From IMG/VR virus record IMGVR_UViG_3300025759_000458, positions 1-29,896 of that record: a stretch of DNA of 29,896 nucleotides. One strand, 5' to 3'. How positions within the stretch are numbered: the stretch's first letter is position 1; each line of letters begins with the position of its first letter. The DNA comes from a virus. The position numbers and the translations under genes were made by a program. Shown in pieces: positions 9,327 through 29,686 of this stretch. The notes under the pieces are model-generated. The model was not told the DNA's origin. It ran no database searches and worked only from the letters and a program-made list of their open reading frames with translations.

Positions 9327-9929
9327 CTATTTTTCCTTGTTCCATTGAACGTTAAGAGTTTTATCATACACCATTAGGTAACGGTGCTTCCTACTTCTGT
9401 CTCGCCACTCACCTTCGAGTCCACTCATCTTTCCTCTAGAGTGTTTGACGAAACTACCATCTTCTTGCTTGATCCAGAAATCCTTCTTGGGATCAGAGAG
9501 TCCATAGTAACCAAAGTTAGACGCCCTGTAAATAGTTCCTTCGTGGAAATCCGAATCAGCATAACTTAATACTGCTCGCACTTCACAACTTTGCCGCAAC
9601 TTCCGCAGACATTTTGCCACGAACCATGACGCCAGATTCCTTTCAGAACTCTGTGGTGTCGGGTGCAAACACAACCGCGAGAGTTCAAAGAGTCCTTGCT
9701 GTTCCGTTCGCTTGAGTCCGAACGCCGACTGAGCGAGTTCTGGGACTGGAAGACCAGTGAAGATACAGACTCCAAGAGGGCCTTCAGCGGAGATGGGTTC
9801 ATCACGAAACAATCCATAGTTGTAACCACTTTTGAATCCCTTGGAATGATCCTTCAGGTAGTGGTACTTGAGAAGTAGTTGTGCGGCTTCTTTCTTACCG
9901 ATGGGTGAGATTGTGAAGTCACTTTTCAT
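9327..9929 (-). CDS. Mom-like DNA modification (acyltransferase-type) protein, 200 aa
   Basis: The pattern matches the Mom family of GNAT-like enzymes: AAQLLLKYHYLKDHSKGF near residue 15, LGVCIFTGLP at about 50-60, FELSRLCLHP at about 80-90, SERNLASWFVAKCLRKL next, and VLSYADSDFHEGTIYRASNF at about 120-140. Mu Mom converts adenine in DNA to N6-carbamoylmethyladenine and so blocks restriction enzymes. I chose the ATG at 9929 because the longer frame runs into tRNA-Gly. The family call is from recognised motifs; the exact base modification here is inference. Confidence 0.75.
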   Translation of the reverse strand: MKSDFTISPIGKKEAAQLLLKYHYLKDHSKGFKSGYNYGLFRDEPISAEGPLGVCIFTGLPVPELAQSAFGLKRTEQQGLFELSRLCLHPTPQSSERNLASWFVAKCLRKLRQSCEVRAVLSYADSDFHEGTIYRASNFGYYGLSDPKKDFWIKQEDGSFVKHSRGKMSGLEGEWRDRSRKHRYLMVYDKTLNVQWNKEK

Positions 9930-9931
9930 AA

Positions 9932-10002
9932 AGCGGGTGGAGAGAATCGAACTCTCATGATCAGGTTGGAAACCTGACGTAATGCCTTTATACGACACCC
10001 GC
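9932..10002 (-). tRNA. tRNA-Gly(TCC)
   Basis: A 71-nt tRNA on the minus strand: acceptor GCGGGTG/CACCCGC, anticodon loop TTTCCAA (TCC at 9968-9970), T loop TTCGATT. It lies 2 nt upstream of the Mom-like start, so processing of a shared transcript would free both. Confidence 0.94.
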
Positions 10003-12916: not shown

Positions 12917-12929
12917 TACAAATTCCAAG

Positions 12930-13002
12930 TGAGTCGGGGGAGACTCGAACTCCCGAAAATAACGTTATAAGCGTTACTGCTGATGCCATCCGCTTCCGAC
13001 CC
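12930..13002 (-). tRNA. tRNA-Ile(TAT)
   Basis: 73 nt on the minus strand: acceptor GGGTCGG/CCGACTC, anticodon stem TAACG/CGTTA with loop CTTATAA (TAT at 12967-12969), T arm GGGAG TTCGAGT CTCCC. It decodes AUA directly. The D stem is imperfect (GCGG/CAGC). It has its own consensus promoter. Confidence 0.88.
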
Positions 13003-16446: not shown

Positions 16447-16674
16447 TCAGTTGTCCTCCGTGAAGATACCGCGAGCGGTACAGAAATCTTCCCAGTTTTC
16501 GTGGGTGATCGTGGAATCGGGGGTGAGACACATCGCTGCTGCGACATCCTCGCTGATGATCTCTTCCCACGCATCCGCAGTGTTGACGAGAACGAAGATC
16601 CGCTTCCCGTTGTCGTCGCAGACGAGGACTTCGAGATGATCGGTGATCGGGTAGTTGTTGACGATGTTGTCCAT
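16447..16674 (-). CDS. hypothetical acidic protein, 75 aa
   Basis: MDNIVNNYPITDHLEVLVCD is the first gene after the promoter at 16724-16751. Strands (LEVLVCDDNGKRIFVLVNTA) are followed by helices with many acids (AWEEIISEDVAAAMCL; NWEDFCTARGIFTEDN). Net charge is strongly negative. Function unknown; anti-host or DNA-mimic roles are possible for such early acidic proteins. Confidence 0.65.
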   Translation of the reverse strand: MDNIVNNYPITDHLEVLVCDDNGKRIFVLVNTADAWEEIISEDVAAAMCLTPDSTITHENWEDFCTARGIFTEDN

Positions 16675-16723: not shown

Positions 16724-16751
16724 ATTATACCATACTCAGGCAGGAAGTCAA
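16724..16751 (-). promoter_or_regulatory. sigma70-type promoter for the 16.7-15.6 kb operon
   Basis: -35 TTGACT (16746-16751), 16-bp spacer, -10 TATAAT (16724-16729), minus strand. Confidence 0.8.
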
Positions 16752-16787
16752 CCCATCGAGGGAATATTCCCAAAATTGGGGATAAAT

Positions 16788-16796
16788 TGTGGATAA
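16788..16796 (-). promoter_or_regulatory. DnaA box (TTATCCACA)
   Basis: The minus strand carries the perfect bacterial DnaA box TTATCCACA in the 200-bp gap between the methyltransferase stop and the 75-aa gene. About 50 bp away lies TATCGGACATT (16847-16857), close to TATCGGACGTT beside another DnaA box at 22524. The rest of the gap holds only the AAAAAC/GTTTTT inverted repeat near 16817-16832, which could be a weak terminator for the methyltransferase. Confidence 0.6.
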
Positions 16797-16874
16797 CTTT
16801 TAGTGGCTATTTGACGAAAAACGGGGGTTTTTGGCTTGACTGGCATTATCGGACATTATGCTCCGTCCATCCAC

Positions 16875-20996: not shown

Positions 20997-22358
20997 TCAG
21001 AAGGGCGACGTTTCCGCAGCGGTGGGATTGAACTGGTTCCAGAAGTCGGGATCCAGATTGACGGCTTCAGCAGTGACGTGCCACTTTCGGCGCTGCTCGT
21101 CCCAGCGGGCGCCACGGTTCTTCACTTCGTCCTTCTGGCTGAAGGAAGTGTCGAGGTACATAACCGTCGAGGGATCGAGGGTCGAGGCATCGACGCTGGT
21201 ATCGATGGTATCATCGAGTTTCGCGTAGAAATCGCGGAAGGCGGTCTTCGTATCGTCGTCGAAGCGGTTCAGTGCCATGTCGATGGCAGTCTCACGCGAC
21301 TGGAAGATGGCGAACGCCTTGACCACGTTTTCGAGTCGTCGGGTGGTGATGATCTCATCAATGGCACCTTCGCGGAATGCTCGGCGGATCATGTCTGCCC
21401 ATTCCGTGAGACGACCAGCGAAATCCTTGTCTTCGCATCCGAGACTCTTCATCTTCTTGAGGAGAATCCGCTTCTCGGTACTCTTCGGAGCGTACTCCTG
21501 CTCCAGAGTCCAGTCGAATCGGTCGAGCATGGCTTCGTTCATGATGTTGGTTCCTGCGAACCTACCATCATCGGAGCCCTTGCCCTTCGTGTTCGCAGTG
21601 GCGAAGATCGTGAAACCAGCAGCGGGCTGGACCCACTCGTTGATCTTCTTCAGGTAGATACCCTTCCCTTCGAGAACCGACTGAAGACACATCATCAGAT
21701 GCGTACCGAGGTCGATCTCATCGAGGAGGAGAACCGCGCCACGTCGCATGGCGTTGACCACGGGACCATCCTGCCAGACAGTCTCGCCGTTGATCAGGCG
21801 GAATCCACCGAGCAGGTCGTCTTCATCCGTGGCGCTGGTAATGTTCACTCGGAAACACTCACGATTGAGATTCGCACAGGCTTGCATGACCATAGTGGTC
21901 TTGCCGTTACCAGACAGACCAGTGACGTACATCGGAGCGAACAGACCACTCTTGATGACCGTTTCGACGGTATCATGATGGCCCCAAGACACATAGGTCT
22001 TGAGTCGATCAGGCACGAGGCTGGTAGCACCAGCAGTCATCCCACGAATCGCGGACAGTTCCGCCACGGGGGCATCGTTACCCTTCGGAGCAGTCGCAGC
22101 AGCAACCCGTTCGGCAGCAGCATCGACCGCAGCAGCAGTAGCGGGCGAGTCGATGACGACACCCGTATCGTCGAGACCAGGCACGATGAACCAACCACGA
22201 TCGTGGCGGAAATCACTGTTCTGGACGAGCCAGCCAGGAGCGTACTTCATGCCCATGCTGTTGGCGACGGCGTTGAGGTCGCTACGCTTCGCAGGGCTGG
22301 CAAGACCAGCGGCTCGGCACGCATCGACGAACGCTTGCTTCTTCGGGGTGAGTTTCAT
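20997..22358 (-). CDS. cobS: CobS-like AAA+ ATPase, 453 aa
   Basis: Start at the ATG at 22358 with GGAG upstream. Residues 3-62 form the small N-terminal module; a low-complexity Ala/Pro linker follows; the ATPase core has Walker A GLSGNGKT (147-154), Walker B LLLDEID (210-216), and the FATANTKGKG sensor region near 252-261. This is the MoxR/CobS branch, cobaltochelatase small subunit in bacteria, and a core gene of T4-like cyanophages. It presumably works with the divergent CobT-like VWA protein. Whether it makes B12 or remodels protein complexes in the virion life cycle is unproven. Confidence 0.88.
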   Translation of the reverse strand: MKLTPKKQAFVDACRAAGLASPAKRSDLNAVANSMGMKYAPGWLVQNSDFRHDRGWFIVPGLDDTGVVIDSPATAAAVDAAAERVAAATAPKGNDAPVAELSAIRGMTAGATSLVPDRLKTYVSWGHHDTVETVIKSGLFAPMYVTGLSGNGKTTMVMQACANLNRECFRVNITSATDEDDLLGGFRLINGETVWQDGPVVNAMRRGAVLLLDEIDLGTHLMMCLQSVLEGKGIYLKKINEWVQPAAGFTIFATANTKGKGSDDGRFAGTNIMNEAMLDRFDWTLEQEYAPKSTEKRILLKKMKSLGCEDKDFAGRLTEWADMIRRAFREGAIDEIITTRRLENVVKAFAIFQSRETAIDMALNRFDDDTKTAFRDFYAKLDDTIDTSVDASTLDPSTVMYLDTSFSQKDEVKNRGARWDEQRRKWHVTAEAVNLDPDFWNQFNPTAAETSPF

Positions 22359-22413
22359 TATCGGAATGCTCCGTTGAGGTCTGGATTTCGAGGGTCGGTC
22401 CCTCGACACGTCA

Positions 22414-22441
22414 ATTATACCATATTCATCGTCCAAGGCAA
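22414..22441 (-). promoter_or_regulatory. sigma70-type promoter for the CobS-like gene
   Basis: -35 TTGCCT (22436-22441), 16-bp spacer, -10 TATAAT (22414-22419), minus strand. The same TTGCCT -35 is used by the divergent CobT-like promoter, so the pair may be tuned alike. Confidence 0.75.
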
Positions 22442-22523
22442 CCCATTGATCCAATATAAAGCCCAGATTGGTGAGATTTTGTCGTAAATACCTGCCAAAT
22501 AGGGACTTATGGGTCAAAAAAAG

Positions 22524-22532
22524 TTATCCACA
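22524..22532 (+). promoter_or_regulatory. DnaA box 1 in the cobS-cobT gap
   Basis: A perfect TTATCCACA, followed at once by AGGATATCGGACGTT. The 393-bp gap 22359-22750 also holds both promoters, a second DnaA box and a nested inverted repeat (GTCAAAAAT/ATTTTTGAC at 22627-22658). Together this looks like a replication-origin or DnaA-controlled region. Confidence 0.65.
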
Positions 22533-22671
22533 AGGATATCGGACGTTGGAGCGGGTCCGACTATAGAAGGAACGCGCCCGCACGCACGCGAATAGCATAA
22601 AATTGGCTGATTGTCAACCGGATTTCGTCAAAAATGGGAAAAATAGTCGATTTTTGACCAAATTTCCCGAG

Positions 22672-22680
22672 TTATCCACA
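22672..22680 (+). promoter_or_regulatory. DnaA box 2 in the cobS-cobT gap
   Basis: A second perfect TTATCCACA in the same orientation, 148 bp from the first and 37 bp upstream of the -35 of the CobT-like promoter. An AT-rich stretch with GGGAAA/TTTCCC and GTCAAAAAT/ATTTTTGAC repeats lies directly beside it. Confidence 0.65.
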
Positions 22681-22716
22681 ATTTACCCACATTTTGAGAA
22701 ATATCTTCCGTATGGG

Positions 22717-22744
22717 TTGCCTTGGGCGCTGGATATGGTATAAT
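22717..22744 (+). promoter_or_regulatory. sigma70-type promoter giving a leaderless cobT-like mRNA
   Basis: -35 TTGCCT (22717-22722), 16-bp spacer, -10 TATAAT (22739-22744), then exactly 6 nt (GTATGC) and the ATG at 22751. Transcription should begin on the start codon. Confidence 0.78.
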
Positions 22745-22750
22745 GTATGC

Positions 22751-24871
22751 ATGAGCAACACGAAAACCATCCTCGCGGGTCTCCTCGCAACCGAGAATCT
22801 CTCGGTTGTGCATGATCCAGCCGCCCAGACTGCTTCCTTCGATCTCAAGAATCGAGTTCTTACCCTGCCAGTCTGGCAGGATATGTCGAACAGTCTGTAC
22901 GATATGCTGGTCGGTCACGAAGTGGCGCACGCCCTGCATACTCCGTGCGATGGTTGGAAGGATAACATCGAGGAATTGTCTTCGATGCATGGTCTTCCCT
23001 ATGCCCTCGTCCAGCAGTATGTGAACGTGGTCGAGGATGCACGAATCGAGCGATTGATCAAGAAGCAGTTCCCCGGACTGCGCCGCGATTTCCTCGATGC
23101 CTATGTGGATCTCATGAACCGCGATCTCTTCAGCCTCGAAGGTCGATCAATCTCCGACCTCGGTCTCATCGACCGTCTGAATCTCGAATTCAAGGTAGGT
23201 ATCCATGCTGGCGAGACGATTCCCTTCGCCCCTGCTGAAGTGCAGTGGATTGAGCGAATCAAGGGCGCCGATACCTTCTCCGATGTTCTCGACATCGTGA
23301 ACGACCTCCTCGCGTCGATCATCGACGATAACGAGGAGCAGGAGCAGGAGCAGGAATCCACCGAATCCGAATCGGGTGAGGGCGAGGGCGATGATACTGC
23401 GCCCGAGTCTTCCGACGATTCGGGCGACGATTCGGGTGAGGATCAGCAGCAGGGCTCCGGTTCAGCCGGAGACGACGACACCGAAGACGGTGCCGATGCT
23501 GATTCCTCGCCCGAAGCGGGCGACGATGCATCCGACGAAGATTCTCCTGCCCAGCAGGGTACGAACGTGCCTGAGTCGATCACCGAATCCGCCTTCTCGA
23601 AGGTTGCGGATGCTATGCGAGACGAAAATGGCGCAACGTATGATCAACGCGAGCAGACTCTGAAGCGAGTCGATCTCGATCGACATATCATCGACTACAA
23701 GCGGTTCCATCGTCTTCTCTCGACCTCGCTGCTGGTGAATGCGGCGAAGGAAACGAGCGATAGGGAATGCCGCCAGTTCATCGTCCGATCCAAGCCCACC
23801 GTGAATGTACTGGTGAAGCAGTTCGAGATGAAGAAGCAGGCTGATGCCCACAAGCGAGTCCAGATCTCCAAGTCGGGTGTCCTCGACACCGTGAAGATGA
23901 TGAACTACAAGTGGTCCGAAGATGTCTTCCGCAAGACTGCCACCATCCGCGATGGTAAGAACCACGGTCTGGTCATGTTCCTCGACTGGTCTGGTAGCAT
24001 GTGCGACCAGATTACCGAGACGATGGAACAGGTGATGCAGTTGGTTCTCTTCTGCAAGAAGGTTAACATTCCGTTCGAGGTCTACGCCTTCTCCAGTGCC
24101 ATGCCGCACGAATTCGATAAGGATCGTACTGAGAAGGAAGATAACGAAGCGTATGCTGCTACTGACTACCGTTTCTCCCTGCTGAATCTCTTCTCCAGCC
24201 GCATGAACAAGCGAGAACTCGACGCTGCTATGCCGCAGTGCTACGCCCTCGCCAAGTCGCAGACATGGAACAATCGAGATCCGCTGCCGACCGTGGGACG
24301 CGAGTTCGGTCTCGGTGGTACGCCCCTGAACGAAGCGATTCTTGCTGCCATCGACATCGTTCCTTCCTTCAAGAAGAACAACAATGTCCAGATTGTGAAC
24401 AGCGTTTTCCTCACGGACGGTAGCGGTAACGGGATGCACGTTCCTTACAACGGTACGCTGAAGATCGAGGGTGACCGCATCGGAACCCGCGTCAACCAGC
24501 AGGGTGCTACCAATCTGCTCACGAAGATGCTTCAGGAGCGTACTGGTTCCAAGGTCGTTAACTTCTTCCTCGCCGACTGGACTCCTGCGAAGTTCGAGCG
24601 CCACTCCTACTACTACTTCCGCGACCACGATAAGATGTACGCGGGACTCGAAACGTGGAAGTCGGATAACTACGCCATCGCCACGAGCGATCAGATGGGA
24701 TGGGACGAACAGTACCTGATCCGTACCGTCAAGATTGACACCACCGACGCCATGGACAGCGTGAAGGACACCGATACCACTGCCAAGAAGAAGAATGCCT
24801 TCCTCAAGAGCATGAAGGGTCGATCCACCTCCCGAGTCGTCCTCAACCGCTTCATCGACATGATCGCCTGA
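22751..24871 (+). CDS. cobT: CobT-like zinc-peptidase / VWA-domain protein, 706 aa
   Basis: Start at 22751, fixed by the promoter that leaves no leader. Residues 1-190 carry a zinc-peptidase-like site HEVAH (56-60) with VVEDAR supplying E95 as third ligand. A very acidic linker (about 195-290, mostly D, E, S, G) follows. Residues about 405-600 are a VWA domain with the MIDAS motif DWSGS (D412, S414, S416) and later GGTPLNEAI. This is the CobT-type partner of MoxR/CobS ATPases. Peptidase plus VWA in one chain suggests an ATPase-driven remodeller rather than a plain B12 enzyme; that reading is inference. High GC codon use matches the CobS-like gene. Confidence 0.87.
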   Translation: MSNTKTILAGLLATENLSVVHDPAAQTASFDLKNRVLTLPVWQDMSNSLYDMLVGHEVAHALHTPCDGWKDNIEELSSMHGLPYALVQQYVNVVEDARIERLIKKQFPGLRRDFLDAYVDLMNRDLFSLEGRSISDLGLIDRLNLEFKVGIHAGETIPFAPAEVQWIERIKGADTFSDVLDIVNDLLASIIDDNEEQEQEQESTESESGEGEGDDTAPESSDDSGDDSGEDQQQGSGSAGDDDTEDGADADSSPEAGDDASDEDSPAQQGTNVPESITESAFSKVADAMRDENGATYDQREQTLKRVDLDRHIIDYKRFHRLLSTSLLVNAAKETSDRECRQFIVRSKPTVNVLVKQFEMKKQADAHKRVQISKSGVLDTVKMMNYKWSEDVFRKTATIRDGKNHGLVMFLDWSGSMCDQITETMEQVMQLVLFCKKVNIPFEVYAFSSAMPHEFDKDRTEKEDNEAYAATDYRFSLLNLFSSRMNKRELDAAMPQCYALAKSQTWNNRDPLPTVGREFGLGGTPLNEAILAAIDIVPSFKKNNNVQIVNSVFLTDGSGNGMHVPYNGTLKIEGDRIGTRVNQQGATNLLTKMLQERTGSKVVNFFLADWTPAKFERHSYYYFRDHDKMYAGLETWKSDNYAIATSDQMGWDEQYLIRTVKIDTTDAMDSVKDTDTTAKKKNAFLKSMKGRSTSRVVLNRFIDMIA

Positions 24872-28997: not shown

Positions 28998-29005
28998 GGT
29001 ATAAT
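28978..29005 (+). promoter_or_regulatory. perfect consensus sigma70 promoter giving a leaderless mRNA
   Basis: -35 TTGACA (28978-28983), 16-bp spacer, -10 TATAAT (29000-29005), then exactly 6 nt (ATTTAC) and the ATG at 29012. The -35 lies inside the 64-aa gene. Confidence 0.82.
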
Positions 29006-29011
29006 ATTTAC

Positions 29012-29686
29012 ATGATGTATCAAGGTAACTTTACGCACGATATCGTGGAGGACATCGAGCCTCTTTCGACATCGCAAGATGAAACAGGTCGGTTCTACAA
29101 TACGCCACATGGCAAAATGGCAAGTGTGACGACCGTAACAGGCTGGGAAAAGCAGAAGTTCTTCGCAAAGTGGAGACGGGAAAACCCCGAAGAGTCTAAG
29201 CGTGTGTGTTCACGCGGCAACTATCTCCACGATGCGATTGAACAGTATCTTCTCAACAACGAGGTGTCAGAGGATCAACTGCCAGGTGGCAGTAAATATC
29301 TCTTTGCACAGATGAAAGAAAGTCTAGACAAGATCAACAACGTTCGTGCCTTGGAGGCTCCTCTATGGAGTCAGGCTACGTCTCTCGCTGGTCGGGTTGA
29401 CTGTGTTGCTGACTACGAAGGTGAACTATCGATTATCGACTTCAAGGGTTCAACCCGCAAGAAGAGAATCCGAGACATCGACAACTACTTCATGCAGGCT
29501 ACTGCTTATGCGATCGCATGGCAGGAGCGAGTGGGACAGCCAGTGAATCAGATTGTGATTCTCATTGCTTCGGAGGAGGGAACCAATCAGGTTTTCAAAT
29601 CTACTCCACAACTACATACAAAGCCTCTATTACAGGCGATTAAGAAGTATAACGAACACTTCGCTCAACAGGGTCAACTATGGTAA
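29012..29686 (+). CDS. RecB/Cas4-like PD-(D/E)XK nuclease, 224 aa
   Basis: The chain has SRGNYLHDAIEQYL (H73, the RGxxxH motif), then LAGRVDCVADYEGELSIIDF with D130 and D143-x-K145, and QATAYA (162-167), the full Cas4/RecB-type nuclease set. Such enzymes are common in T4-like marine phages and annotated as exonucleases for DNA degradation or recombination. The gene starts at a leaderless ATG and its stop region overlaps the next gene (ATG at 29680). Confidence 0.85.
   Translation: MMYQGNFTHDIVEDIEPLSTSQDETGRFYNTPHGKMASVTTVTGWEKQKFFAKWRRENPEESKRVCSRGNYLHDAIEQYLLNNEVSEDQLPGGSKYLFAQMKESLDKINNVRALEAPLWSQATSLAGRVDCVADYEGELSIIDFKGSTRKKRIRDIDNYFMQATAYAIAWQERVGQPVNQIVILIASEEGTNQVFKSTPQLHTKPLLQAIKKYNEHFAQQGQLW

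Follow-up and report, generated by a model that had tools for sequence, protein, structure and literature searches.

The window, i.e., the entire virus record of 29,896 bases, carries two divergent genes whose spacer contains three DnaA boxes; the equivalent spacers of two relatives, G015 and L164, contain two each. The initial annotation had described the genes as cobS-like and cobT-like, an identity borne out by their matches to phrog_249 and phrog_459, respectively. We take phage CobS and CobT to be a MoxR-like ATPase and its VWA-type partner. The two perfect boxes reported in the same orientation in this spacer were also found, starting at 22524 and 22672 (148 bp from start to start). Absent from that first description were a third perfect box, the partners spaced 2 bp from the perfect boxes, and the promoters of which these pairs form part. 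The features are listed in Table 1.

Table 1. Positions of genes, DnaA boxes, promoters and other elements in the window
Feature	Position	Strand	Remarks
Small-gene cluster behind second module, first gene	16450-16674	minus	75 aa, no family match
Second intact module	16724-16798	minus	TTATCCACA-2-TTATCCCCA, then TTGACT-N16-TATAAT
Weaker partner box TTATCCCCA	16777-16785		2-bp spacing from perfect box 16788-16796
Third perfect DnaA box TTATCCACA	16788-16796	minus	only perfect box of the contig outside the spacer
cobS-like AAA+ gene	20997-22358	minus	phrog_249, E 8e-101; Pfam AAA_5
cobS promoter	22414-22441	minus	TTGCCT-N16-TATAAT; mirror image of cobT promoter
DnaA box 1 TTATCCACA	22524-22532	plus	perfect; ~80 nt upstream of cobS promoter, in opposite orientation
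Conserved non-coding core	22533-22610		AAGGATATCGGACGTT ... GACTATAGAAGGAACGCGCCCGCACGCACGCGAATA-CATAAAAT; between box 1 and module
GTCCGATA motif	22537-22544	minus	adjoins box 1
Nested inverted repeat	22627-22668		
Arms GTCAAAAAT / ATTTTTGAC	22627-22635 / 22650-22658		
Arms GGGAAA / TTTCCC	22636-22641 / 22663-22668		
Promoter module upstream of cobT	22670-22744	plus	75 nt: box pair, spacer, -35, -10
DnaA box 2 TTATCCACA	22672-22680	plus	perfect
DnaA box 3 TTACCCACA	22683-22691	plus	2 bp downstream of box 2, same direction
cobT promoter	22717-22744	plus	TTGCCT-N16-TATAAT, TATGG before -10; strong sigma70-type
cobT-like gene	22751-24871	plus	phrog_459 (annotated as peptidase), E 3e-184

Some further features of the record were noted. 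Only 6 nt separate TATAAT from the ATG at cobT (22739-22751), at an exonuclease gene (29000-29012), and at a gene at 15.2 kb (15168-15161, minus strand), so the messages of all three may be leaderless; similar gaps of 6 to 8 nt precede cobT in many relatives. ARAGORN predicted a tRNA-Ile with the anticodon TAT, which is unusual in bacteria, at 12929-13002 (minus strand), and this tRNA is not among the above-threshold Rfam tRNA matches. A Mom-like DNA modification protein (9330-9998, minus strand) shares 60% identity with a protein of Roseobacter phage CRP-212, all other matches being far more distant, which could hint at the host.

Perfect DnaA boxes occur three times in the window against 0.32 expected, a number reached in none of 100 dinucleotide-preserving shuffles. 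Boxes with one mismatch occurred at chance frequency (9 against 7.25 expected), and what stands out is therefore the perfect boxes and how they are arranged. Boxes 2 and 3 belong to a promoter module upstream of cobT, of which a second intact copy faces a cluster of small genes. The two modules are 73% identical over 75 nt and share a common layout, consisting of TTATCCACA, two bases, a weaker box, a spacer, and GGGTTGNCT-N16-TATAAT with TATGG ahead of the -10 hexamer. In both, the start of the first box lies 45 nt before the -35 hexamer, and the cobT pair spans approximately -79 to -60 if transcription is assumed to start 7 nt after the -10. As expected for a DnaA-regulated sigma70 promoter, consensus DnaA boxes are thus located upstream of a sigma70-type promoter. 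The cobS and cobT promoters form a 33-nt inverted repeat with 91% complementarity; the cobS promoter also aligns to the module profile, but its box positions are degenerate, as in a decayed copy, and TTTACGWCA occupies the site equivalent to the box. Besides this decayed copy, the profile detected a complete module twice in each of three sequences (the window, G004, and G007); the second module is present in G004, G007, and G001. Just upstream of the second module, G004 carries a gene with a weak ParB-like match (L020:8361-9401, E 2e-4), the place of which is taken by other genes in the window.

Searches with the CobT protein retrieved four contigs of 84-92% identity that cover the spacer. Conservation of the boxes in relatives, a point raised by the initial annotation, was confirmed in the spacer alignment of close relatives, where the boxes vary within the DnaA consensus. 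Box 1 is identical in all aligned close relatives (four to five counted). The pair reads TTATCCACA then TTACCCAC- in the window and L016, and TTTTCCACA then TTATCCACA in L015 and L017, while both boxes are perfect in L018; the box 3 position is hence a perfect TTATCCACA in L015, L017, and L018. Each aligned relative retains at least one perfect box in the pair, and the changes either stay within TTWTNCACA or are mild. Across G001 to G007, wherever a promoter closely follows a box, the distance from box to -35 is 45 or 34 nt, according to whether the box is the first or second of the pair; no distance was imposed in this search, but the regions were taken from relatives. The exception, G006, has a 10-nt deletion that brings the spacing to 35 nt, a change of about one helical turn, and L016 has lost 10 nt between the box pair and the promoter. 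In G002 and G003, cobT and cobS are again divergent, and it is cobS rather than cobT that the module faces. The fixed spacing between box and promoter is found in the window clade, in G001, and in G002/G003, and is absent in L164, G015, and G017; among close relatives, inheritance of a duplicated module from a common ancestor may account for part of it.

To look beyond close relatives, we used two panels of loci chosen by protein similarity (157 loci, 1.317 Mb). Of these, cobS and cobT are divergent in L043, L044, L045, L047, L048, L049, L050, and L164. Their spacers hold 7 perfect boxes in 3,994 bp, compared to 12 in the remaining 1.313 Mb, a 192-fold higher density in divergent spacers; on this frequency check, too, the outcome favours the initial annotation. 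Counted by lineage, a perfect box occurs in three of seven divergent lineages versus 0.45% expected for each (P ~3e-6, from the panel's own background rate and with lineages treated as independent). The possibility that the boxes are products of chance plus inheritance, without function, could draw on the chance frequency of one-mismatch boxes, yet it is strongly disfavoured by this enrichment, by the lineage count, and by the retention of perfect boxes in all close relatives, and we consider it scarcely credible. Tandem pairs, i.e., a perfect box with a near-perfect partner 2 bp away, were found within the 157 loci only in L048, L049, and L164, always in the divergent spacer, and none was detected in the 136 other panel loci that contain both genes and were not scored as divergent. 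No consensus box is present in the spacers of L043, L044, L045, and L047. The boxes of L164, G015, and G017 lie in the same spacer, but no promoter is found at the module distance; the gap between box and promoter parts is ~92 nt longer in L164. The divergent cobS/cobT lineage (L043, L044, L045, L047, L048, L050, L164, and the window) is set apart from cyanophage-like phages with both genes in the same direction. A scan of viral contigs for the box spacing returned 11 stretches, among which L006, L007, L008, L010, L011, and L014 lack the module and were discarded as chance matches, as were L120-L123; the search for a similar spacer in isolated phages likewise gave only chance matches.

We then considered which protein could bind these boxes. 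A phage-encoded DnaA was discarded, as none was found in 11 related contigs: the DnaA C-terminal domain (PF08299) is absent from these contigs, whose completeness is unknown and which are possibly fragments, while the same profile was detected in 10 of 14 control genomes. Because no DnaA gene was found in the related contigs, host DnaA is the likely ligand and the natural candidate for these boxes. DnaA of Thermotoga shows its best paired binding to two same-direction boxes when they are 2 bp apart (PMC10316083), which is the geometry of the box pair described here. When bacterial genomes were scanned for a sigma70 promoter preceded by tandem boxes, 33 stretches were returned, many of which adjoin apparent dnaA or rpmH/rnpA genes (names judged by eye from the N-termini). 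Another DNA-binding protein, from phage or host, might instead recognize a motif that merely resembles a DnaA box: DnaA binding is a prediction from the sequence, and the site equivalent to the box at the cobS promoter reads TTTACGWCA. We regard this as improbable, since the boxes use the full nine-base DnaA consensus and vary largely inside it, the head-to-tail pairing at 2 bp is known for DnaA, and the like arrangement in bacterial genomes is found mostly at dnaA/rpmH regions. Even less support can be given to the idea that the boxes stage DNA entry or titrate DnaA. A published discussion of another phage (PMC13250531) describes an injection stop signal that contains repeats and DnaA boxes, but those found here are too few for titration and form part of promoter modules at two locations, making such a role very unlikely.

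The spacer contains additional elements. Its most conserved stretch is the core next to box 1, with 92-96% invariant columns in two 25-nt bins versus ~45-70% in most others. Equivalents of this core occur in the distant relatives L044, L045, and L048/L049, and in L044 and L045 without boxes; the part at 22559-22605 is kept down to relatives with ~37% CobT identity. Read on the minus strand, that part comprises TTGACA-17-TATTCG, a GC-rich near-palindrome, and then a pyrimidine-rich tract. TTGACA-17-TATTCG is a candidate leftward promoter, the -35 of which is kept in several lineages while its -10 is poor. A structured RNA was rejected, as the spacer gave no Rfam match at E values up to 1, the core folded no better than shuffled sequences, and no pair was changed on both sides. 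Matches to the core pattern in L124, L128, L129, and L131-L136 were attributed to chance. The GTCCGATA motif is present only twice in the window, next to box 1 and in the second module (16847-16854, minus strand), both times beside DnaA boxes, and recurs in the spacers of G004, L164, G017, and G014. As for the AT-rich nested inverted repeat of the initial annotation, its arms are present, but four close relatives do not preserve their pairing and the AT content is only moderate: the best 60-nt window of the spacer reaches 67% AT, a value equalled or exceeded at 6% of window positions. A cruciform or hairpin element was thus rejected given the loss of pairing in relatives.

These elements bear on the first of two roles proposed initially for the boxes, a replication origin or control of the divergent pair. 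As an origin, the spacer would be where host DnaA opens the DNA or loads a helicase for the first rounds, before phage-directed replication. Such an origin would account better than the promoter module for box 1, for the core, and for L164, G015, and G017. Three additional, more distant lineages retain boxes in the spacer without a fixed promoter distance, and the conserved non-coding core and the GTCCGATA motif accompany the boxes. The GC-skew check proposed in the initial annotation gave a divided answer. In G015 (135 kb), the cumulative skew has its minimum after the maximum at 127.0 kb, with the boxes at 127.5 kb, but in G017 (119 kb) the minimum is at 25.5 kb and the boxes are at 2.5 kb. 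Skew follows the coding strand in both genomes and was set aside as origin evidence, being confounded by gene direction. In addition, there are only two or three boxes, with moderate AT-richness and a non-conserved inverted repeat, a second module occurs at an ordinary promoter 6 kb from the spacer, and four divergent lineages have no boxes. We therefore view an origin as possible but doubtful.

Promoter control gained the most from the analysis, with a fixed-spacing module that is repeated at another gene cluster. We prefer transcription control because of this repetition, the fixed spacing, the deletion of one helical turn, and the occurrence at two loci, although our confidence that host DnaA acts here mainly on transcription is only about even. 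Starting from the boxes, the module and its copies, their spacing, and their conservation as observed, the cobS-cobT spacer would be a control region responsive to host DnaA. The protein would bind the same-direction pair cooperatively and, acting on RNA polymerase, would most likely activate from upstream rather than repress. Expression of cobT in this phage, of cobS in the G002/G003 lineage, and of the second small-gene cluster would then follow the level or nucleotide state of host DnaA, probably from early promoters. DnaA is known to activate or repress promoters, including those of nrdAB and lambda (PMC8203912). Against transcription control stand the boxes of L164, G015, and G017, which lie away from a promoter, box 1 and the conserved core, which the module leaves unexplained, and the lineages without a consensus box (L043, L044, L045, and L047). 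A lambda-like combination, in which DnaA at the spacer would activate a phage promoter and the transcript, together with the conserved core, would open the first phage origin, appears rather unlikely; phage replication would in that case be tied to the initiation state of the host.

T4-like phages are regarded as independent of host initiation factors. The present results suggest that one T4-like group reads or uses host DnaA, a protein thought not to be needed by such phages. If so, phage gene expression or first-round replication would respond directly to the replication state of the host, and a promoter with paired DnaA boxes would make the unexplained phage CobS/CobT pair accessible to experiment. 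Our literature search, limited in scope, turned up no earlier account of DnaA boxes in T4-like phages. DnaA boxes are already noted in other phages (PMC11512268, PMC13250531), in one case for origin prediction (PMC11512268).

Several known systems resemble the one described here. T4-like cyanophages have homologous genes, with 33-37% CobT identity, but their cobT and cobS point in the same direction (136 panel loci, most by direct reading). In lambda, as far as the account cited in PMC8203912 goes, host DnaA stimulates the transcription that activates ori-lambda. Both phages would thus have host DnaA boxes in a control region for lytic growth, where DnaA is thought to contact RNA polymerase in lambda. 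Of the elements of a lambda-type, transcriptionally activated origin, boxes and a promoter are present in the spacer, with no origin located. Lambda is nonetheless a different type of phage, whereas the tandem pair with 2-bp spacing upstream of the -35 and the two promoter copies are particular to the present case, and no phage initiator or origin is known at the cobS-cobT spacer. Bacterial rpmH-dnaA/oriC spacers are also divergent, with 2-bp tandem boxes upstream of a sigma70 promoter and an AAA+ gene on one side, but the phage spacer has no dnaA gene, no obvious unwinding element, and fewer boxes. Finally, in the E. coli nrdAB and dnaA promoters (PMC8203912), which are of the sigma70 type, DnaA boxes likewise occupy positions close to the -35 or farther upstream; those promoters serve chromosomal genes, while the genes concerned here are phage cobT/cobS and a cluster of small genes.
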